DNA of 64,000 nucleotides from Desulfomarina profundi (GTDB lineage Bacteria; Desulfobacterota; Desulfobulbia; Desulfobulbales; Desulfocapsaceae). The position numbers and the translations under genes were made by a program. The stretch covers positions 1,694,501 through 1,758,500 of the forward strand of contig NZ_AP024086.1 of the NCBI RefSeq assembly GCF_019703855.1. The letters run 5' to 3'. The notes beneath the pieces are model-generated. The model had not been told where the DNA came from, made no database searches, and saw only the letters and a list, made by a program, of their open reading frames with translations. This document shows positions 47,806-63,439 of the stretch, one piece after another. Every line of letters begins with the position of its first letter. The first letter of the stretch is position 1.

Positions 47806-48654
47806 TCAAAAAAGATTTGAATATATTTTCAACGGCAGGCAATTTTTGACGATATCCCCCCGCCTGATAAGGAACTCGAAATACGTTGTCAGAGCCTTCT
47901 GTTTCAGATCACCCAGATCATATTCAATACCCTGCAGGTATTCATAACAACTGGACACAGGCATCGGAATTCGGGAAGCCGTGATTTCACATACTTCTTT
48001 CAATGCTGTCTTCCCCTCATCCCTGCAACGGATAAATTCACGGTGAATCTCATCCAGTACTTCCTGGTGCTCAAAACAGAATTCCTCCCGTACCGCACAG
48101 ACGGCAAAAACAAATGGTAATCCCGTTTCCCGTTTCCAGATATCACCCAGATCAAATTGGTACAGATAAGTCGATTCAGCAACCAGCCTCAGAGCGTCAT
48201 CCCCGATTGCAAGTATAGCTTTAAACTCATCACCCACCTCGCCTGTTACATCACCGAAGGTATATGAAGGAGTGACACCATTGAATTCTTCAAAAATTAA
48301 TTTCACCAGGCCCACTGAAGTTTCAGACTGAGAAGTCAATAAAACAGGTGCCCTGTCAAGCTGGTCAAGAGGTACATGGGAAAAAAGGAACACAGAACCG
48401 ACGGGTCCGTTGGCACTGATTGAAAGACCTGACAGAATTTTGTACTTTTCCGGATGTGCCCCGTATTCAAAACTGGAAATAAAGCCGAGATCAAGCTCTC
48501 CATTTGCCAGTTTCCTGTTCAACCGGGTCGGTGCAGCCTCGACAATCTCCCATTCCTCCCTGACAACGGACTGCTTCCAGGTTTCATGGATTGGTGCCGT
48601 ATTGATATAATCCACCATACCAATTCTTGCTGTAATCTTCTTTGATGCATTCAT
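47806..48654 (-). CDS. mqnA: Chorismate dehydratase MqnA
   Basis: 282 residues with a periplasmic-binding-protein-like fold. ARIGMVDYINTAPIHETW at the start, LDLGFISSFEYGAHPEKY, GPVGSVFLFSHVPL and LAIGDDALR are typical of MqnA/MqnD proteins; the organisation and order in the operon favour MqnA. It turns chorismate into 3-enolpyruvyl-benzoate, the first step of the futalosine menaquinone route. 174 bases separate it from mqnX. Confidence 0.9.
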   Translation of the reverse strand: MNASKKITARIGMVDYINTAPIHETWKQSVVREEWEIVEAAPTRLNRKLANGELDLGFISSFEYGAHPEKYKILSGLSISANGPVGSVFLFSHVPLDQLDRAPVLLTSQSETSVGLVKLIFEEFNGVTPSYTFGDVTGEVGDEFKAILAIGDDALRLVAESTYLYQFDLGDIWKRETGLPFVFAVCAVREEFCFEHQEVLDEIHREFIRCRDEGKTALKEVCEITASRIPMPVSSCYEYLQGIEYDLGDLKQKALTTYFEFLIRRGDIVKNCLPLKIYSNLF

Positions 48655-48828
48655 AAAAACTGATCCTTAACTTTTACCTGAGTACGTGACGGTTTTACGT
48701 TTTTATTTGAATATACATTCCCGATAACATTTTATGATTACACCTGAACCTTGCCCTTCAACATGATTGCTGTTCCGCATCTCCGACGGGACATCAAAGA
48801 ATCCAAACCTGCCAATTGCGTGAATTTT

Positions 48829-50109
48829 TCAGACAATCCAGGAAATTTCGGCAGGTCTTCCCCCCGAAACTAACTCTTTTACCACTTCGTAACCATCTCT
48901 GCACTGTCTAAGTTCCGGAGAAGAGACCTGCAACAGTTTTACAAGGCGACCTGGCTCAATTATGCCAACCTGATCCTCATATCCCGGAATCATGACACCC
49001 CTGGTTGCCATATGAAGAATCTCCGCAGCGTGCAATTCCTCATACATTTCATGCAGAAGTCGCATTTCCTCCCAGAGATCAACTTTCGTATTGGAGGCAA
49101 ACGAGTCAGTACCAAGGACAAGCGGTATTCCCGCACGGACCATTTCCACCACCGGTGGTCGCCCCACATCGAGAAACCGGTTGCTTCCCGGACAAAGACA
49201 GACAATGGCCCCCCTTCTTCTGATAAGATCAATATCGTTTTCGGAGATATGGACACAATGTACAAGAAGGGTCCTCTCATCAAGAACATCGAGATAATCC
49301 AGGTATTCTATTACACTTGAAAATTTTCCTGCAGAGAAGTCAAGTGTGCCGTCCAGGCGGCCAAGTTGTTCAAGAAATGATCTGAACTCACCCTTGCCCG
49401 TTCTTACAAATTCAACCTCACTCTTTGACTCGGCCGTGTGAATAGAAAAAAGATGATTCTGTTCAAGACTGCGCTTTTTGAGCAGCTGTATTATTCTTGG
49501 AGATGTTGAATAAACAGCATGGGCCGTTGCGGGATTTATCCTGTTCTTGTTTTTATTTTTGTTCTTATGATTTTCTATCAGGGTAAAGAGGTCAGCTTCA
49601 ATTTCTTTTGTTGGAGCGATATATTCCACCAGTCGTAGAAGAAACGGACTTTGTCCCTCCATCTGTTTCCCGTGCAGATCCGGAACAATCGTATTTCCGG
49701 TATCTACTACTGCTCCTACTCCGGAGTTATACAGGTCACGGAGAACAGTTGAAAAAGCAGTACCATATTCCTCCTGGCCTGCTTCTCCTTTCTCCCCACG
49801 TTTTTTGATGAGTGCGCTTATCCAATCGGTAAATTTCCCATATTTACCCGGCTCCATTTTCCCTTTCAACCATGACAGTTCGAGATGAGTGTGACAATTA
49901 ACCAGGCCAGGCATCAAAACTGCACGGCAATAGAGCTCAATTCCGTCCGAAAACTGTTTCAGCAGAGTACATCGGGGACCAACGGCAAGAATTCTGCCCT
50001 TTTCCACGACCACGGCCCCATCAGCTATCACCTCTCCTGAAACCGGAACAACCCAGTCTGAAGAAAAAATTTGTAACTGGTCACAGGATTCGTAACTCTG
50101 TGTTTTCAT
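48829..50109 (-). CDS. mqnX: Aminofutalosine deaminase family amidohydrolase (MqnX-like)
   Basis: 426 residues of the metal-dependent amidohydrolase superfamily: VNCHTHLELSWLKGK gives the HxH metal motif, SIHTAESKSEVEF the next His, LVHCVHISEND another, and LVLGTDSFASNTKVDL the catalytic Asp. It should deaminate aminodeoxyfutalosine to futalosine. The start ATG (50107-50109) and the first dozen codons (MKTQSYESCDQLQIF) lie inside repeat family 1 copy E. No other in-frame start precedes the conserved part. It begins five bases after the mqnC stop. Confidence 0.9.
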   Translation of the reverse strand: MKTQSYESCDQLQIFSSDWVVPVSGEVIADGAVVVEKGRILAVGPRCTLLKQFSDGIELYCRAVLMPGLVNCHTHLELSWLKGKMEPGKYGKFTDWISALIKKRGEKGEAGQEEYGTAFSTVLRDLYNSGVGAVVDTGNTIVPDLHGKQMEGQSPFLLRLVEYIAPTKEIEADLFTLIENHKNKNKNKNRINPATAHAVYSTSPRIIQLLKKRSLEQNHLFSIHTAESKSEVEFVRTGKGEFRSFLEQLGRLDGTLDFSAGKFSSVIEYLDYLDVLDERTLLVHCVHISENDIDLIRRRGAIVCLCPGSNRFLDVGRPPVVEMVRAGIPLVLGTDSFASNTKVDLWEEMRLLHEMYEELHAAEILHMATRGVMIPGYEDQVGIIEPGRLVKLLQVSSPELRQCRDGYEVVKELVSGGRPAEISWIV

Positions 50110-50131
50110 CTACCTTACCCACGTAAGTGAT
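50073..50131 (+). repeat. Repeat family 1, copy E (spans the mqnC stop and mqnX start)
   Basis: It begins GTAACTGGTCACAGGATTCG and ends CGTAAGTGAT. On the minus strand it supplies the codons NHLRG and stop of mqnC and, six bases further, the ATG and first residues MKTQSYESC of mqnX, with TAAGG five bases ahead of that ATG. Confidence 0.85.
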
Positions 50132-51182
50132 TTACCAGGGAATAGTCCATCCTTCGCTGCCCTGGTTCAAATCCTGCTCCGGTTACCAAATTACAGATCT
50201 CTTTTTCTGAAAGAGCAAACCTGACTCCGGCCGCTGCAACAACATTTTCCTCAATCATGGTTGAACCGAAGTCATTGGCGCCAAAATGGAGTGAAAGCTG
50301 TGCAATTTTGGGACCCTGAGTGACCCACGATGCTTGAATATTATCAAAATTATCAAGATAAATCCGTGACAGGGCCACCATTCGCAGATACTCCAGACCA
50401 GAACTCTTCTCTATTTCCTCCAGACGTGTATAATCAGGTTGAAACGGCCAGGCAATAAATGCAGTGAATCCTCCGGTTCGGTCCTGTAACTCCCTTAATC
50501 TACGCAGGTGCTCAAGCCGTTCAACAACAGTCTCCACGTGGCCGAACATCATTGTCGCCGTTGTCCTCAACCCCTGTTTATGAGCCTCTTCCATCACCGC
50601 CAGCCACTCATCTGCACTGCATTTTCTCGGAGCAATCAGCTGTCTTACCCGGTCACTGAGTATTTCCGCTCCACCCCCCGGAATAGAACCAAGACCGGCG
50701 AGTTTCAATCTCCTGATGACCTCGCTTATACTTTTTCCACTGATATTGGAAAAGTGGACAATTTCAGGAGGTGAAAAGCCATGGATATGAATAGAGCGTG
50801 AGCGTATAAACTGCACCATTTCCTCATAAAATGAAAAGGGCAGGTCCGGGTGCAGTCCCCCCTGGAGAAGAACCTGCGTTCCCCCCAGTTCTTTTGTCTC
50901 CCGGATTTTTTCATCAAGCTCATCAAAACCGAGAACATAACCTTCTTTTTTTTCAGGTTTTTTAAAAAACGCACAAAACTTACAAGCGGAAATACAGATG
51001 TCCGTATAATTGATATTTCTGTCAATAACATATGTAACCAACTTATCGGGATGCTTTCTCGTGCGAACCAGATCTGCCAACATACCAAGCTGGTGGAGCC
51101 CTCCCTCTCTTTCAAGATAAAGAAACTCTTCATCTGTAAGTCGTTCTTTTGAAATTATTTTATCAATTATTTTCTCAATCAT
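50115..51182 (-). CDS. mqnC: Cyclic dehypoxanthinylfutalosine synthase MqnC
   Basis: 355 residues from the ATG at 51182, which overlaps the mqnE stop by eight bases. A radical-SAM enzyme: CISACKFCAFF is the CxxxCxxC cluster motif, with QVLLQGGLHPDLPF and GLGSIPGGGAEILSDRVR downstream. It closes the ring of dehypoxanthinylfutalosine. Length and motifs fit MqnC; MqnE is its paralogue next door. Its last codons come from repeat family 1. Confidence 0.95.
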   Translation of the reverse strand: MIEKIIDKIISKERLTDEEFLYLEREGGLHQLGMLADLVRTRKHPDKLVTYVIDRNINYTDICISACKFCAFFKKPEKKEGYVLGFDELDEKIRETKELGGTQVLLQGGLHPDLPFSFYEEMVQFIRSRSIHIHGFSPPEIVHFSNISGKSISEVIRRLKLAGLGSIPGGGAEILSDRVRQLIAPRKCSADEWLAVMEEAHKQGLRTTATMMFGHVETVVERLEHLRRLRELQDRTGGFTAFIAWPFQPDYTRLEEIEKSSGLEYLRMVALSRIYLDNFDNIQASWVTQGPKIAQLSLHFGANDFGSTMIEENVVAAAGVRFALSEKEICNLVTGAGFEPGQRRMDYSLVNHLRG

Positions 51183-52272
51183 GGATCTGCACCACATTAA
51201 AAAGCGTATCCCTCTCCACAGGAACTCTCCCTGCCTCCCTGATCAGCCTGATCAGGGTCCTGCTGCCGATAGCCTGATCCGTTGACGCTCCGGCCATATG
51301 GGTAATCACCTCTTCTTTCACGGTTCCATCCATATCATCCGCGCCAAAAGAGAGAGCTATCTGGGCCATTTTCGGGCCAATCATAACCCAGTATGCCTTG
51401 ATATGGGGAAAATTGTCGAGAAACAGGCGGGCCACTGCCACATTTTTAAGATCTTCAATGCCATTTGGACCGGAAAGTTCTGCCATGGCTGTATTGCGCG
51501 GATGAAAAGCAAGAGGGATAAATGTCATGAATCCCCCTGTTTCATCCTGGACTTCCCGCAGATTATAGAGATGCTCCAGTCGCTCCTCATCAGTCTCAAT
51601 ATGACCATACAGCATGGTCGCATTACTTTTCAAACCAATCCCATGCGCAATTTTAGCAATTTCCAGCCACTCGTTTCCGGATATTTTCTTCTCACAGGTA
51701 ATTTTTCTTACCCTGGGGCTGAAAACCTCCGCGCCACCACCCGGGAGAGAGCCAAGCCCCGCCTCCACCAGCTTTTCCAATGTCTTTTCCACATTCATGC
51801 CCGCCAGTTCAGCAAGATGAGCAATTTCCACACAGGTAAAGGCCTGAATATGTACATCAGGCCTCACGTCCTTGATACCTTTCAGTAATTCAAGATAATA
51901 TGAAAATGGCAGATCAGGATGAATTCCCCCCACCATATGTATCTCCCTGATCGGCTCCGACAACCGCTCACGGACTTTTTCTTTCACATCTTCCACACTC
52001 ATTTCATAGGCAAGATCTGAATCTTTTTCCCGGCCGAAGGCACAGAATTTACAGAGATTACTGCAGATATTTGAATAGTTTACATGCTGATTATAAATAA
52101 AATATGCGTCATTACCGTTCAACCGGTTCCTGACTATATCGGCAAGAAAGCCAAGTGCAAGAATGTTGGTACTTTTATAAAGATTAAGACCATCTTCCAG
52201 ATCTAAACGTTCTCCGGCCTGAACCTTTTCAAGAATGCTTCCAAAGCCTGCTTCATGTATGTATTTATCCAT
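51175..52272 (-). CDS. mqnE: Aminodeoxyfutalosine synthase MqnE
   Basis: 365 residues, radical-SAM: NICSNLCKFCAFGREKD gives the cluster motif, then MVGGIHPDLPFSYY and GLGSLPGGGAEVFSPRVR. It joins enolpyruvyl-benzoate and SAM to make aminodeoxyfutalosine. It heads the operon and is separated from the sigma-factor gene by a strong terminator, so its own promoter must lie in or just after 52273-52376, where I cannot identify core elements. Confidence 0.95.
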   Translation of the reverse strand: MDKYIHEAGFGSILEKVQAGERLDLEDGLNLYKSTNILALGFLADIVRNRLNGNDAYFIYNQHVNYSNICSNLCKFCAFGREKDSDLAYEMSVEDVKEKVRERLSEPIREIHMVGGIHPDLPFSYYLELLKGIKDVRPDVHIQAFTCVEIAHLAELAGMNVEKTLEKLVEAGLGSLPGGGAEVFSPRVRKITCEKKISGNEWLEIAKIAHGIGLKSNATMLYGHIETDEERLEHLYNLREVQDETGGFMTFIPLAFHPRNTAMAELSGPNGIEDLKNVAVARLFLDNFPHIKAYWVMIGPKMAQIALSFGADDMDGTVKEEVITHMAGASTDQAIGSRTLIRLIREAGRVPVERDTLFNVVQIHD

Positions 52273-55806: not shown

Positions 55807-55882
55807 GGCCCCATCGTCTAGTGGCCTAGGACACCGGCCTCTCACGCCGGGAACAGGGGTTCGAGTCCCCTTGGGGTCACCA
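55807..55882 (+). tRNA. tRNA-Glu (anticodon CTC)
   Basis: 76 bases that fold as a full cloverleaf. The 7-bp acceptor GGCCCCA pairs with TGGGGTC, the anticodon stem CCGGC/GCCGG closes the loop CTCTCAC with anticodon CTC, and the T arm is AGGGG-TTCGAGT-CCCCT. The 3' CCA is encoded. It reads GAG codons. Confidence 0.97.
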
Positions 55883-56192: not shown

Positions 56193-57095
56193 ATGAAAAT
56201 CAAATCGTTACATAACAAATGGCTTACATCCGGCTTCATTGTCTCAACTGCAATACTGATGGGTTCCAACGCCAGTCTGGGTGCAGGTACAACCAGCCAG
56301 ACCACCACTGAAGAATCCGCAGTTCAATCCATGGAAGCAAACGTTGAGGATACTGAAGCCACGGGCGAAACCACCGAAGAAACTGAAAGCGAGTTTTACA
56401 AAAACTACATCAAAGGTAAACTTTCCATCGGTACCCGAATTGTTTACCGCAGCCTGACCGATGGCGATTCAGGTGCCAAAGGCGGCCTGCAGGGCAGTGG
56501 TACATTTCTCGGCACTATCTACGCCCTGGATGAGGAGCAGAATTACGCACCGACAAAAATTTTCCTCGGTTACGATTTTACCAAATATTTTGGGATCGAA
56601 TTGGCCTGGGATTCTATGGAAGCCTCCACGAAGGCGACCTCAATCTACAGCAGTGAAATTAAGAGTGATGGTGAAGTATCCCTTTACGGCCCTACACTCT
56701 CCCTGCTCGTCAAAATCCCAAACAAGACCCAGTTTACCCCCTATGGCGGTTTGGGAATCGGTTTTTTCTCAGCAGATTTTGACGAATCTGCTGACTGGGC
56801 TCTCGGCTACCAGGGTCCTTCGCATTATGAAAGCCTGGGATCCCCATCTACCCCTTTTAATGGCCATACCCGCTCAATGGAGGTTGACTCAACCACTGCA
56901 TTCCTCCTGACCATTGGCGTTAGCTGGTTCCCGACCGAGAACTGGTTTCTGGATCTTTCCGGCCAGTATGTCAAAGCCGACACGGATGCAACTTTTACCA
57001 GTTTTCAGGACGGGGTACAGACCGGCACTCCCCAGACAGGAAACTTTCCAATGGACAACTTTGCAGTCCGCTTTGGAATCGGCTACAGGTTCTAA
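56193..57095 (+). CDS. Outer-membrane beta-barrel protein (OmpW/OmpX-like)
   Basis: 300 residues from the ATG at 56193 (GGA eight bases upstream; ATG at 56181 also possible). A signal peptide (LTSGFIVSTAILMGSNASLG, cleavage near GAG) is followed by a Thr/Glu-rich acidic linker (TTTEESAVQSMEANVEDTEA). Then alternating amphipathic strands begin at GKLSIGTRIVYRSLTDG and include YGGLGIGFFSADFD and WFPTENWFLDLSGQY. The last residue is Phe (FGIGYRF), as barrel assembly requires. The stop codon is the left base of a family 3 repeat. Substrate or role unknown. Confidence 0.85.
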   Translation: MKIKSLHNKWLTSGFIVSTAILMGSNASLGAGTTSQTTTEESAVQSMEANVEDTEATGETTEETESEFYKNYIKGKLSIGTRIVYRSLTDGDSGAKGGLQGSGTFLGTIYALDEEQNYAPTKIFLGYDFTKYFGIELAWDSMEASTKATSIYSSEIKSDGEVSLYGPTLSLLVKIPNKTQFTPYGGLGIGFFSADFDESADWALGYQGPSHYESLGSPSTPFNGHTRSMEVDSTTAFLLTIGVSWFPTENWFLDLSGQYVKADTDATFTSFQDGVQTGTPQTGNFPMDNFAVRFGIGYRF

Positions 57096-57153
57096 CCCTC
57101 ATTTTTCATGAACATTGTGTCAATTTTGACAATAATTGCAGAACACAAACAGT
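57093..57153 (+). repeat. Repeat family 3, left-end copy
   Basis: TAACCCTCATTTTTCATGAA at the barrel gene's stop, followed by CATTGTGTCAATTTTGACAA, is nearly the same as the first 60 bases of the element at 57266. It lacks a right end of its own unless both left ends share the one at 57497. Confidence 0.7.
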
Positions 57154-57194
57154 GAGAGTCCGGGCAACAAATCATGCTCCCTGGATTCTCACTG
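57150..57194 (+). terminator. Candidate terminator of the barrel gene
   Basis: CAGTGAGAGTCC (57150-57161) pairs with GGATTCTCACTG (57183-57194), 12 bp with one mismatch. No long T run follows. It is the only hairpin close to the gene's 3' end. Confidence 0.5.
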
Positions 57195-57265: not shown

Positions 57266-57509
57266 TTAACCCGCATTTTTCATGAACATTGTGTCAATTT
57301 TGACAATAACTGCAGAATACAAACAATCAGTCAACTCTCAGTAATTGAGCAAATTTTACACAATGGTCACCCAGGGTCAGTCCTGCCAATGCCATTTTCC
57401 GCACTATTTCTCCTGTAAATCCAGGTCACTGCAATTCACTGCCAGGCAAGCAAAAACTTCTGACATTTTGAAGCTGACACCGCCTGAACTGATGAGAAAT
57501 GCGGGTTAA
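57266..57509 (+). mobile_element. MITE-like element, repeat family 3 full copy
   Basis: 244 bases bounded by terminal inverted repeats of 18 bp with one mismatch (TTAACCCGCATTT... at 57266-57283 and its reverse at 57492-57509). It has no coding capacity. Fragments of the left end occur at 10199, 27377 and 57093, and of the right end at 1 and 27508. No clear target-site duplication is visible, and the partner transposase is not in the window. Confidence 0.7.
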
Positions 57510-57615: not shown

Positions 57616-60600
57616 ATGTATAGGCCACTGAATTTACAGAAATATATTTGTACAATACTGTTATTTTTAATCTGTTTGGGCAACAATAATACGTCTTGGT
57701 CCAATGACATGAATAGCACAGGACTGCATGACCCACAGGAAATGACCATAAAACATGTTTTGACAGAAACTGGAACTGCGTTTGGCATTGGACCTGGATC
57801 TCACTGCACTTATGCATCGTACCAGGGCAATACTTTCTGTGTGGAAATAATTGGCCCAGAAAGGGGGGAAAAGGGGGCCATTCGTTATGGCCTGAATTAT
57901 CCACTCCTTGATAAGCGTGGGTATTGCACAGGAAAAAACCTGGCCTGGATTTATGCGTGGAACTCTGAAGCTGCAGCAAAAGCGGATATGCTTCAACAAA
58001 TTAAATTATGGGGAGCCAATTCCAAGCGAACTTTCCATGGAAAAATGGCCTTTGGTATAGGTTCCGGAAAAACTATTGACGCCTGGCAGGCAGGACGCTT
58101 CACTTTTATGGTTAACAACCCGCAACCGGACTTACCGACTCCTTCCAAAATGGAATTTGCCGAGGAACTTTATAGAAACGGGGCAATTTCAGGTCTATTC
58201 ACCGATACAGGAAATGTCGTCCATGATACTGACAGGGATGGCGTTCCCAATGAAAGAGATAAATGCCCCGGAACAGCTCCGGGTACAACTGTCGATGCCA
58301 ACGGCTGCATAAAAAGAGACATCTGGATTTCTGTTTCACCTGATCATTTTTCCCGGACAGGAGATATAGCCCAGATCGAAGTCAGGCTTGTGGGTGACAG
58401 CACCGAAAATTTTTCGGGAAAAACTGTACTCCTCGAGAACGGGAAAGAGAAACAGGGAAAAGTGACAGACTCATCCGGTTTAGTCAAATTTACTGTGAAA
58501 CACAGTGACAAAAACCGTGCATCCTATTCATATAGAATACGAACTGAGAGATTCACTCGTACTATAACAATTCCCGTTATACAACTGGAAGCTGCTCTCG
58601 AAAAGAATCCATTGACTGGGAAACCATATACCGGAATTATCGCGGACGGAAAAACAGGAATTAAAATTATTATAAATACTACCGGGGTGTACAAGGGGCT
58701 GTTAATGGTCAAAAAACCTTCCCTTGGAACCATTCAATGTAACGGTTCTACTGCTCAATGTGGCACAATCCCCCTGACTGGCAGCAAACAGATAATCCTC
58801 AACTACTTTCCTCCAGCCTATCTGGCGAAATCGTATCTTAAAGAAAAAATTATACCCGGCAAGGAGACCCGGCAGATTGTAACTGATGCCATAAACACAG
58901 GAACCTACTACCTCAATTCCGGAAGACCGCCATTGGCAACCCGGGTACCTGTTGAGTTCACCTGTAAATATCCGGACGGTCGCACTTCAACTTTCGCAGT
59001 GAATATACTGCTCACCCGCCCACCAGTTCTGCTTGTCCATGGATTTACCGGCGGTAGAACTACCTGGGGGAAACTCCAGACCTATCTGGGCGGCGAAAAG
59101 TTTGATCCCGTCATTGATACTTATTATTCCGGTAACCAGGGGATCCATGCTCAGTCAAAATCTTTATCGATAAATATTAAACGTGAACTCAAACGATACA
59201 GGTCTATGGGATTAAAAGGTACCCGGGTCGATGTTATTGGACACAGTATGGGGGGCTTATTACCCGAAATTATATTCAGGGGTACCCACGTTTCCAGGGG
59301 GATATCCGAAAGCTGATCATGGTGGGCACTCCAAACCACGGTGTCAGTTATACAGATTATGCGGCAGGTGTCTTTGTCAGCGACTTTCTGGGGAAACATC
59401 GCCTAGCCGCCACCCAGCTTTACGCCAACAGCGCATTCATGAAAGTGCTTAACCAAGGTGAAGAAGCAGGGAGACATTTACGAACGGGTGTCCAGTATGG
59501 CAATATTTTTGGTAGCACGAACGATTATGTTGTTCCAATGGCATCTGCATTTTTAAATGGAGTCAATTTCAAGACAATCAGACACGTCACCCATTCTCCA
59601 GCTGTTCCTTTACCCGGTGTTCCCATAACAGAATCAAAACAGGTCTGGGACTGGATAAAAACCTTTCTGACCCATGATATACCACGTGGCACGTTGAAAA
59701 ACATGCAGATCGAAATCGCCTCAGGAAGCGGAAACGTATTCAAACGTACTCTGGTGCCGAAAAACGGGACGTTCCTGGAACAATATGATAAAGTCAAAAC
59801 CTATCCGACCAGCGTGCTTCCCTGGGAAGATATCGGTTGTGGTCCCAACAGTCAAACCCTGCTTCATCTGAAAATCGGTGGTTACCAGTGGGGGAGCATT
59901 CAACTCAGTGAAAACAGCCTGATAGAGCTGGGGTTTCTTTCACCTCAATCCGTAACTGTTCGTGTTCGAAAAGGAAAAGCCAGATTTGTCAGCATTGTAC
60001 GAAAAGGTGGAGGTCATTTTACCGTAACGATCGGCCCTGAAAATTCAGGTCAATGGTTTACTTTTCACCCTAACGCAAAAATTGTAGGCCTTGACACTGA
60101 TTTTGTTGTTACCGTTCGCTCTGACAGGAGTGTCAGAGTGGAAACCCTGCAGGGTAGAATACGGATAGAAAACAGCGCGGACAACTCGAACAGGAGCGAC
60201 CTTATCGCGCAGGGACAGACTGTTGAAATATCTGACAGCGGAAAGATCAGACCAGGGGGTATTTTACCACAACCCACTCAAAACAAACCAAACCTTCCAA
60301 ATGATCAGCAACCACCTGTTTCCTCTGATAAAATTTTTCACTTTGCTGCTGACAACTGGCAACCACATTCCCTTACCGAGGGTCGATGCACCAGTCAGGG
60401 AAACCAACTCTGCATTGATGCAATGCACCCCGGAGGCGCATGGTTCACGATACGTCGACCTTATGAATTTGCAAACGATTATACCGTCCGTTTTGATGTT
60501 AAACTGAATACAGCGGATAATCACTTTCCCATACTGTACAGCGACGGTTTTGTTTATGTGATGATTGACTGGGGAACAAGGTTGGGGCATTATCAACCAG

Positions 60601-61958
60601 GCCGATCATATAATCTAAAGGATATAGTCAATCTTCAACAGGGACGATGGTACAAAATACGTATTGAGGCACACCCATCTCAAAAAACTTTTGATCTGTA
60701 CCTGGATAACAGGCTCATCAGCACAGCAACAGGCATCATCCCTTTTAAAAATTATCATACCACAAGCCCACAGATAACAGACAGTGGAGTTATCTGGCTG
60801 GGTGATGCCGATTCTGTTGCCTACAGGGGAGGGAGATATAATCGAGGCAGTCTCTGTTGGAAAAACATAACTGTAACACAAGGAAAACACTCTGCAAATA
60901 CTCACGGAAACACTCCCCATAAAGCGAAAGAATATGTCTGGGTTTTGAATAACAGTCGCCAGATATACCGCTGGAATGGAGCAAACTGGGATCATATTCC
61001 CGGACAAGCAACGGATATCGGAGTCGGTGCCAATGGAACCGTATGGATCATCGGCAATAACCCTGTGACTTATGGTCATTCTATTTTCCGCTGGATGGAC
61101 AATATCCAGGCTTTTGTCACGGTCCCGGGAGAAGCAGTCCGGGTTGATGTTAATCACTTTGGCATCCCATGGGTAGTCAACAATTCCGGTGATATCTACC
61201 GCTGGAAAAAACGCCAATGGGAACATGTTCCCGGCAAAGCGACAGATATTGGAATCGGTCCTGATGGCAGTGTCTTTGTCCTTGGAATAAACCAAATTCA
61301 GGGCAATTATGAGATATATCACTGGAACGGTTCAGGGTGGGATCTTTTCCCAGGCAGGGGCATTCGTATTGACGTGGACGCTTCCGGCAATCCCTGGGTT
61401 GTCAATAGTGCAGGAAATATCTACCGTTGGACAGGAACGAAATGGGAACTTTTGCCAGGACTGGCTACCGATATCTCCATCGGCAAAGTAACCGCCTGGG
61501 TCACCGGAACAGACAATGTATCAGGTGGACACGGAGTTTACCGATGGAACAGTCAGTCAAGAAACTGGAATCGAATCCCCGGTGGTGCTGTCGCCATTTC
61601 TGTCGGAGCCCCTCCTGCTGCAAAAGAAATGCTACCGCATCTTACAAGCGGTATTTATCGGGTTGATGCTCAAGTCGGTGGGACAGTCTACCATTCGACC
61701 TGGAAACTCAATGTGATGAATGATCAGATCAGTGGAACATCAGAATGGATCTGCTGTCCACACAAACGTACCGATCCGATGACCGGCAGAATTACCGGTA
61801 ATTCTATTACAATCAAACGGAACTGTACAGGGCAGGGATATAACAGACCATGCGAGCAAACATACAGAGGGAACATCATCAATAGACGTATTGAAGGAGA
61901 CGCAATCGGCACCGGCTTGGAGATGAAAAACCACTGGGTGTTATATCTTGATAAATAA
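57616..61958 (+). CDS. Large secreted multidomain lipase-like protein (frame interrupted near 59297-59301)
   Basis: About 1447 residues when restored. A signal peptide (ICTILLFLICLG) leads to an unrecognised domain. A thrombospondin type-3 calcium repeat follows (DTDRDGVPNERDKCPGTAPG, near 205-225), then a beta domain, then an alpha/beta-hydrolase: LLVHGFTGGRTTWGKL and the nucleophile elbow GHSMGG. The frame then stops at 59314-59316. One extra G in the G5 at 59297-59301 continues RKLIMVGTPNHGVSYTDYAA. Next come a FecR-like beta domain, a lectin/LamG-like domain and a six-or-so-bladed tectonin-type propeller (repeats such as NSGDIYRWKKRQWEHVPGKA). A lipocalin-like end closes it. Likely a surface or secreted esterase; the substrate is unknown. 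Confidence 0.82.
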
Positions 61959-62023: not shown

Positions 62024-62069
62024 GTGTCTGTCCTTAAATGGCCTTTTCGCCCGATTTCTGGACAGACAC
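62024..62069 (+). other. Perfect 10-bp inverted repeat after the lipase gene
   Basis: GTGTCTGTCC (62024-62033) and GGACAGACAC (62060-62069) flank a 26-base loop, 65 bases after the lipase stop. It could end that transcript or be a small repeat or transposon end; there is no T run. Confidence 0.5.
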
Positions 62070-62117: not shown

Positions 62118-62336
62118 ATGAAAAATTATTGTAATCGCTTTAGAGGATATATCCTGTTGAGCATGTCTCTTGCCCTGATCCTGGGCCCTTTCAAAGGTAA
62201 CCTGTTCATGGATTTCAGCTTTTCCCGGGCCAACATTTTCAAATATGTCATTGCAGTGCTCTTTATACTGGGAGGCATTATACTGATGCGCAACACCAAC
62301 AAAGCTGTTAAAGGAATTCCTCTTAACCCCCGTTGA
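62118..62336 (+). CDS. Small membrane protein, 72 residues
   Basis: Two hydrophobic segments: ILLSMSLALILGPF and IFKYVIAVLFILGGIILM, with a polar end NTNKAVKGIPLNPR. No family is recognised. It is followed 30 bases later by another membrane protein on the same strand. Confidence 0.6.
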   Translation: MKNYCNRFRGYILLSMSLALILGPFKGNLFMDFSFSRANIFKYVIAVLFILGGIILMRNTNKAVKGIPLNPR

Positions 62337-62366
62337 TCTCAATTCATCGGAGACTGTATTATAATA

Positions 62367-62824
62367 ATGTTTTTAAGTACGTTGGCCTATGGTTTATGTT
62401 CTTACGGTGTTAACAAAATCACCACCATTACTCCGTATCTGTACGACCCCATAGCAATGGGATTGAGGACAATTACCTATCTGCCTGTAACAGCGCTGTT
62501 TGCTGCCTTGTCCTTTCAATTTGGACAGAGCATTGAAGTAAGTAAAAATGAAATACTCATTCATTCTGCCGGAAAAACTCAACGGTTTCACTGGAGAGAA
62601 ATCCTCGGTTTTGAGCTGAAAAACACATATATCATTGCTATAAATACTGCTTTTTCAGCTCCCAGAAAAATGCAGACTAAACTGGTTATTCATACTCGAA
62701 AAAAAAGATTGAACTCATTGAGCCCGGTTCTAAAAAAACAAAAAAACGACTCATCCGGGAACTGACAAAAAACGCTCCAGATCACTTAAAAACAAATATT
62801 GTACAGTTATCAGGTACATGGTGA
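62367..62824 (+). CDS. Membrane-anchored hypothetical protein (frame interrupted near 62699-62706)
   Basis: As written it ends at 62765 with a low-quality tail. One extra A in the A8 run at 62699-62706 (CGA AAA AAA AAG ATT) gives IELIEPGSKKTKKRLIREL and a stop at 62822-62824, 152 residues. Two hydrophobic segments (LAYGLCSYGVNKITTI and ITYLPVTALFAALSF) precede a beta-rich cytoplasmic part (EVSKNEILIHSAGKTQRFHW), which resembles PH-like small membrane proteins. Function unknown. Confidence 0.6.
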
Positions 62825-62952: not shown

Positions 62953-63043
62953 CTTGAGTATATGATAAAAAACTGTTTTCAGAAGAATTAATCCTGTTAT
63001 AGTTGGCCATTCAATGCTCAATTTTTACAAGACTTTTGTTGTT

Positions 63044-63439
63044 ATGGGACAAAAAAAAGATACCACCAGTTCCACAGAAAAATTCAAGATATATTCCCCG
63101 GAAGAGGCTTTTCAACACCTCACCCAAATACGATCCGAAGAAGAACAACAGCTTTATGTGGCAACAGATGAGATCCTTTTTCATGTATGGGACGCACTCT
63201 GTATTTCCATTGACAAAAAATGCAGGGATGAATACCTGCCCTACCTGCCCCACGTTTTTGACCTTCTGAAAAACACCAGTGATGGCCGTGAGATATACGA
63301 ATACCTGATTTATATCGAAGAACGGCTTGGTACACCCCCGGGAGACAATCTTGCCCCGAGGCGTGCCAATCGCACAGTTGATATTCTTCTGAAATACCGC
63401 ACTGCCATTCTCAGGTCATCAAGTCGCGAAGAGGAGTAA
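63044..63439 (+). CDS. Conserved-looking hypothetical protein
   Basis: 131 residues from the ATG at 63044 (MGQKKDTTSS); an ATG at 63014 would add ten. A soluble helical protein: EEAFQHLTQIRSEEEQQLYV, FHVWDALCISIDKKCRDEYL, then IYEYLIYIEERLGTPPGDN. No motif is recognised. It lies 212 bases ahead of nadA on the same strand. Confidence 0.65.
   Translation: MGQKKDTTSSTEKFKIYSPEEAFQHLTQIRSEEEQQLYVATDEILFHVWDALCISIDKKCRDEYLPYLPHVFDLLKNTSDGREIYEYLIYIEERLGTPPGDNLAPRRANRTVDILLKYRTAILRSSSREEE

Follow-up and report, generated by a model that had tools for sequence, protein, structure and literature searches.

Does the large lipase gene near the end of a 64,000-nucleotide stretch of the Desulfomarina profundi genome (contig NZ_AP024086.1, positions 1,694,501 to 1,758,500 of the forward strand; this whole stretch is hereafter the window) encode a working secreted enzyme that acts alone, or is it one part of a larger system? 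An earlier note on this DNA had described a lipase of unusual domain order, interrupted by a change of reading frame, and had stated that no secretion partner was adjacent. The latter statement does not hold, since a decayed membrane-protein gene directly follows the lipase. We give about even odds (a probability of roughly 0.5) to the reading that the locus is a decaying two-gene surface unit, composed of a glycan-binding exported lipase and a dedicated membrane helper.

The lipase is read in two forward frames. An open reading frame (ORF) at 57616-59316 encodes 566 residues and ends with a TGA at 59314-59316, and a second frame, listed from 59319 with 879 residues, ends at 61958. This second frame is open from 59187, and because 59187-59313 is open in both frames the change may lie anywhere in that interval. 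Joined, the two frames give a product of 1447 residues, the length given previously, whichever of the two frame-change sites compared below is used. The parts of the joined protein, and the gene that follows it, are listed here.

57616-57702, forward strand: beginning of the lipase gene, residues 1-29, resembling a signal peptide (translation read by eye)
57733-58215, forward strand: N-terminal domain without known family, about residues 40-200 (no Pfam match in residues 1-235 except TSP_3 at 204-221)
58225-58314, forward strand: single TSP3-like D-x-D-x-D-G linker, residues 204-233 (Pfam TSP_3)
58318-58995, forward strand: immunoglobulin/macroglobulin-like stretch before the hydrolase, about residues 235-460 (MG4 14.4 bits, cut-off 24.7; weak)
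59011-59684, forward strand: alpha/beta-hydrolase (lipase), residues 466-690 of the joined protein, split by the frame change (Pfam; PDB lipases)
59250-59255, forward strand: run of six G (G6), most likely frame-change site, in the nucleophile-elbow codons (three-frame translation; Pfam comparison of two placements; run list)
59994-60233, forward strand: FecR-like part, residues 794-873 (Pfam FecR PF04773)
60288-60881, forward strand: LamG/concanavalin-like part, residues 892-1089 (41% identity to part of a 329-residue protein of genome G079)
60933-61604, forward strand: tectonin propeller, residues 1107-1330 (Pfam Tectonin PF19193; PDB 5fsb)
61641-61955, forward strand: C-terminal module A4, residues 1343-1447 (105 residues), lipocalin-like by eye (53-54% identical to the modules of loci L047 and L019)
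62118-62824, forward strand: decayed gene of the membrane protein, hereafter the partner (tblastn to an intact 309-residue paralogue; profile match with an internal stop)

The alpha/beta-hydrolase is firm once the frames are joined. All Pfam hydrolase families stayed below their cut-offs in the split ORFs; the joined protein exceeded those of seven (Palm_thioest 39.1, PGAP1 38.7, Abhydrolase_1 29.7 and Lipase_2 26.1 bits, with DUF7379, DUF915 and DUF676), and the PDB lipases 1ys1 and 1oil matched residues 463-594, across the junction at residue 547, with an E-value of 9e-7. The motifs HGFTGG and GHSMGG (S544), D637 and H657/H660 are present and fit a Ser-Asp-His triad by position and motif only. 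In PHROGs the matches were weak, the best being phrog_789, an esterase/lipase (E 0.0086), with the first frame.

The position of the frame change was examined by comparing two placements with Pfam over a 240-residue stretch. With the change at the G6 run, eight families exceeded their cut-offs (PGAP1 42.0, Palm_thioest 41.3, DUF7379 37.0, Abhydrolase_1 32.2, Lipase_2 28.8, Abhydrolase_6 26.7, DUF915 25.0 and DUF676 25.0 bits), whereas at 59297-59301, the site proposed in the earlier note, PGAP1 (40.8) alone did so, with Palm_thioest at 24.1, Abhydrolase_1 at 17.3 and Lipase_2 at 17.8 bits. As seven hydrolase families clear their cut-offs only with the G6 placement, we take the G6 run as the better site. 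It lies within the first-frame codons of GHSMGG, about 47 bases upstream of the other, and directly past it the second frame reads LITRNYIQGYPRFQGDIRKLIMVGTPNHG.

Among the remaining parts, the propeller previously read from the sequence is well supported, with Tectonin at 89.5 bits against a cut-off of 30 and PDB 5fsb (Tectonin 2) matching residues 1107-1311 with an E-value of 6.7e-14. Other domain names fared unevenly. The thrombospondin type-3 repeat does match TSP_3, but at 18.3 bits, under the cut-off of 25, and similar TSP3-like linkers occur in many genomes, at up to 68% identity among 395 genomes of the phylum. The FecR-like fold likewise scored 15.3 bits against a cut-off of 24; a profile made from the FecR parts of the loci L059 and L060 described below nevertheless matched the same residues (i-E 2.2e-6 against the one target, 0.0047 in a wider scan). 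The role in signalling or multimerisation that had been attached to it found nothing in its favour, and FecR is also present in the L059 and L060 proteins, which hold no Pfam enzyme. For the LamG-like fold, no LamG model matched the region itself, which reached only Polysacc_lyase (16.1 against 29.9), and its profile A7 gave no match in PDB at E <= 1; its 41%-identical relative in L050 (genome G079) did match Laminin_G_3, at 17.9 bits and under the cut-off of 27.6. The lipocalin-like end is a reading by eye, Pfam giving no family there. Modelling of the second frame alone (59256-61955) yielded a mean pLDDT of 36 and no usable fold.

Altogether, the product is best read as a secreted lipase that carries surface-binding parts, a reading that is partly supported. 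The first gene would encode an exported lipase or esterase with an internal hydrolase domain, and the tectonin, LamG-like and terminal modules would probably hold it on a glycan-coated surface. That the tectonin part may bind a glycan is a reasonable expectation from its family. In excerpts from two reports, tectonin family members bind O-alkylated sugars (PMC5238581) and human tectonin binds bacterial lipopolysaccharide (PMC2707011). No 19-residue stretch of the lipase protein attains a mean hydropathy of 1.6.

The whole architecture was found in no other genome searched. A scan of 84,980 genomes gave no relative of the first frame among 31 pattern matches. By tally the first frame was matched in 10 of 58 relatives, the listed matches outside the own genome being confined to the TSP3-like linker or to a short piece of the hydrolase, and the second frame was matched, among the same 58, in the own genome only. 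For residues 1-178 no match beyond the own genome was listed in the 58 relatives or in the 395 genomes of the phylum, where no more than two candidates of each genome were scored, and the N-terminal domain compared with the proteins of L056 and L060 gave a best blastp E-value of 2.2 and nothing with phmmer. Large hydrolase relatives in L054 and L055 were rejected as carriers of the same architecture, their accessory parts differing by eye. The G+C content at third codon positions is 0.42 and 0.44 in the two halves of the lipase gene and 0.38-0.51 in 25 other ORFs; composition thus gives no mark of foreign origin.

The gene that follows the lipase was recognised by its intact paralogue of 309 residues, with 40% identity over 175 residues (tblastn, E 2e-38). 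It carries a TGA at 62334-62336, where the paralogue has W, and a second change of frame near 62708-62747; the part past its first span is shortened. As assembled, neither gene of the window copy is intact, and the copy looks decayed. The paralogue lies elsewhere in the same genome, at locus L019, where the intact membrane-protein gene adjoins another A4 module, reduced to about 75 residues (G000:C1:2637535-2637756), all that is left there of the exported protein, and a transposase gene that is presumably IS3-like (by eye). The two-gene unit is thus present twice in the own genome and is damaged both times. In the gap between lipase and partner of the window lies an inverted repeat, GTGTCTGTCC.../...GGACAGACAC (62024-62069), which by eye resembles one end of some small mobile element.

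The partner is probably a membrane protein of four spans with a bacterial-PH-like domain on the cytoplasmic side. The 423-residue partner of L060, modelled from five sequences (pLDDT 73, pTM 0.52), has helices at 3-22, 224-244, 258-288 and 297-321 that coincide with hydrophobic stretches. The model resembles PH-like domains with Z 6-7, which is below the decisive level, the aligned residues lying within 249-422 and the comparison covering the families on the VIA-align list. The bPH_6 family (PF10756, cut-off 22) scored 21.9 bits with the L057 partner and 18.7 with that of L056. The PH-like part would lie inside the cell, because positive residues are found near the spans.

The profile scan of the 84,980 genomes gave seven partner loci (L056-L062). 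In the 395 genomes of the phylum the partner occurs in six, the own one included, two of the six being truncated, and in the order of the L060 genome it occurs in 3 of 295, one of them (G593, L079) weak. Counting each place once, 11 loci were compared: the ten below, MAG standing for metagenome-assembled genome, and L078.

Window: A4 and tectonin near the partner
L019, own genome: A4 remnant near the partner
L052: A6, convergent; partner truncated
L056, Deltaproteobacteria MAG: proteins with PKD/MG2-like parts downstream of the partner, phosphoesterase upstream
L057/L048, Thermodesulfobacteriota MAG: tectonin near the partner, cut off at the contig end
L058, Candidatus Tharpella MAG: A5 frame cut off at the contig end, plus a weak tectonin-like frame (15.9 bits) between
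L059, Prolixibacteraceae: two A5 remnants just before the partner; a FecR, CBM96 and A6 protein ends 636 bases away
L060, Bacteroidetes MAG: FecR, CBM96, A6 and A5 near the partner
L061, Aminicenantes MAG: partner remnant
L062, Thiotrichaceae MAG: partner remnant

In seven of these 11 loci a frame carrying A4, A5, A6 (the three terminal-module models) or tectonin ends at most 400 bases from the partner, and in L059 and L060 the FecR, CBM96 and terminal modules lie upstream of it on the same strand. L058 and L060 supplied the A5 model; the A6 model drew on L059, L060 and L052. The following had no part in building the models: the tectonin end of L057, the two A5 remnants of L059 and the A4 remnant of L019, which was found by way of the lipase and not of the partner. 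A5 of L058 and L060 share 57% identity, and A6 of L052 and L060 share 39%; the recurrence of both modules across phyla is a sign of association. Tectonin was found in 11 of 380 genomes of the phylum, and two of these, the own genome and G170, also have the partner, adjacent in each.

Several observations weigh against this association and against the two-gene reading built on it. The whole lipase is absent from every genome searched. The count of seven in 11 is partly circular, because two of the three models of terminal modules, A5 and A6, derive from neighbours of the partner. At L058 the distance to the partner is 378 bases from the end of the frame but 660 bases from the end of the A5 module. 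Four loci are without a module: L056, which has other proteins with Ig/MG2-like parts downstream, and L061, L062 and L078, which are remnants or a truncated copy or lie close to the end of a contig. Modules are also met with no partner on the same stretch, namely A4 (L047), the LamG-like part (L050) and tectonin (L053), and profile comparisons of A4 with A5, A4 with A6 and A5 with A6 were not significant. The other nine tectonin genomes are not among the six partner genomes; as two of four G210 proteins score FG-GAP over Tectonin, the 11 in 380 may include other propeller kinds. For the partner itself, in the L019 protein the region 145-211 (the last spans) alone passes the hydropathy threshold, the L058 and L059 proteins match no Pfam family and that of L019 only DUF6529, weakly, and Foldseek of the L060 model gave no PDB match at E <= 0.001.

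Large tectonin-matching proteins, four of G210 and one of G092, were examined as possible cases of the same architecture and rejected, since their parts are papain, VWA, Lcl_C or others and a lipase is missing. At L047 (56-5849, G170) a protein of 1312 residues has A4 near its start (frame residues 191-293) and no partner on its contig. A 407-residue protein precedes it, as does a gene that by eye resembles an L,D-transpeptidase. A 749-residue protein beside the partner at L056 (2757-5003) has PKD/MG2-like parts and, by eye, a C-terminal HG...AC pattern like that of caspase-type peptidases. The two broken A5 modules of L059 (8713-9213) separate the FecR gene from the partner and look like a former C-terminal end that was displaced. 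At L061 (1278-3380) the end of the partner survives as a 44-residue remnant (64% identity) just after transposase-like frames (by eye).

Because the unit is rare and crosses phyla, its distribution suggests horizontal spread. A nadA-like gene (by eye) lies after 63652 of the window and is found in four of seven genomes of the genus, the own one included; in the three others (L084, L085 and L086) lipase and partner are both missing from the flanking sequence covered, which in L086 extends only about 1.4 kb upstream. In L085 a relative of the small ORF 63014-63439 is retained next to the nadA-like gene. It may be that the unit was inserted in this lineage alone.

The breaks in the window copy might be explained otherwise than by decay. 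If the frame change of the lipase, and perhaps those of the partner too, were an error of sequencing or assembly, the gene would make an intact 1447-residue protein. The lipase break is best sited in a G6 run and one of the partner breaks in an A-rich stretch, the usual places of indel errors, and the catalytic motifs and the remaining lipase domains are preserved. However, 70 runs of six or more G/C or seven or more A/T are spread over the other 43 long ORFs of the window, which nevertheless remain long, a control that is weak because long ORFs were selected; moreover, the in-frame TGA and the shortened part of the partner are beyond a homopolymer error. The shortening may be natural, the L057 partner being likewise short there, but the in-frame stop argues for decay, and we consider an error somewhat unlikely. 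Programmed -1 frameshifting, by which a short secreted protein of 566 residues and the full lipase would both be made, appears very improbable: the G run does stand in register as a slippery heptamer (G GGG GGC) in the first frame, but the RNA fold downstream of it is no better than shuffles (z 0.05 and 0.54), no relative sharing the heptamer site was found, and the neighbouring partner gene is decayed as well.

A different rival concerns what the two genes do together. Polymorphic toxins are described in an excerpt of PMC3482391, and the lipase could be an antibacterial effector that attacks other bacteria, with the membrane protein protecting the producer. The adjacency of the membrane gene, the rarity of the pair and its spread across phyla agree with such an effector and immunity pair, as do the intact orphan partner beside a destroyed exported gene at L019 and, at L059, the remnants of modules that separate gene and partner. 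In contrast, Pfam shows no catalytic domain in the L059 and L060 proteins that lie upstream of the partner, the catalytic domain of the lipase is internal and is not a C-terminal toxin, and the defence library PADLOC gave a single weak match (PDC-M64B, E 0.0042, with the L060 partner). The terminal modules vary beside the partner, and Pfam recognised no toxin domain in them. We hold the effector reading to be quite improbable and prefer a helper, because the L059 and L060 upstream proteins are without a recognised catalytic domain while the terminal modules and FecR parts recur.

As a dedicated helper, the membrane protein would most likely help to export, display or sense the exported protein encoded next to it. 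Beyond the window we propose, tentatively and with less confidence than for the decaying unit itself, a two-gene surface system that crosses phyla, in which each exported protein, composed of a terminal module and of enzyme, lectin and FecR parts that can be exchanged, is paired with a dedicated membrane protein whose cytoplasmic PH-like domain would read or support its exported partner.

These features can be set beside known systems. The lipases 1ys1 and 1oil, from Pseudomonas/Burkholderia, we take to be family I bacterial lipases. The window protein shares with them the hydrolase core of residues 463-594, across the frame junction, and the GHSMGG elbow; their chains are of about 320 residues, and it has about 1,000 further ones. 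The gene of a membrane-anchored foldase adjoins family I lipases. Here, in contrast, the relatives of the partner match no Pfam lipase-chaperone family, and no lipase foldase was found at the locus, the upstream neighbour being an outer-membrane barrel and the downstream partner relatives giving no chaperone match (the rest of the genome was not searched). The propeller is common to Tectonin 2 (5fsb), which is a stand-alone lectin, and to the window protein, where it is part of a multi-domain enzyme. In the FecR and CBM96 proteins of Bacteroidota (L059, L060), FecR and terminal modules lie upstream of the same partner family, as in the window, but these proteins have no hydrolase or tectonin, and their terminal modules are A5 and A6 where the lipase has A4. 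Type II secretion with membrane-associated chaperones, as described in an excerpt of PMC4713064, resembles the proposed unit in that an exported enzyme is thought to work with a membrane protein in both; the partner here, with about four spans and a putative PH-like domain, showed no sequence relation. As judged by titles and abstract openings, the literature found held no protein combining lipase, tectonin and FecR and nothing relevant on a bacterial PH domain with transmembrane parts and a secreted lipase, and for extracellular FecR-domain proteins with lipocalin it surfaced only iron in Bacteroidetes.

What keeps large multi-domain secreted enzymes on the bacterial surface is seldom known. 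If the proposal is true, a partner common to a Desulfobacterota lipase and to FecR/CBM96 proteins of Bacteroidota would be a handle on surface retention and also a marker by which such systems could be found. The copy in the window appears decayed, and its annotation as a working lipase is unwarranted without new reads.

Some further features of the window were recorded. Between the outer-membrane barrel gene and the lipase there is a 64-base direct repeat (57093-57156 and 57267-57330, 92% identical, spacing 174), with an inverted copy of its start at 57492-57509. A tRNA-Glu (ctc) at 55807-55882 lies between a 4-alpha-glucanotransferase-like gene (by eye) and the barrel gene. Four neighbouring minus-strand ORFs at 47856-51926 hold seven C6 runs, which are G6 on the coding strand, against four runs of at least six C in the other ORFs counted.

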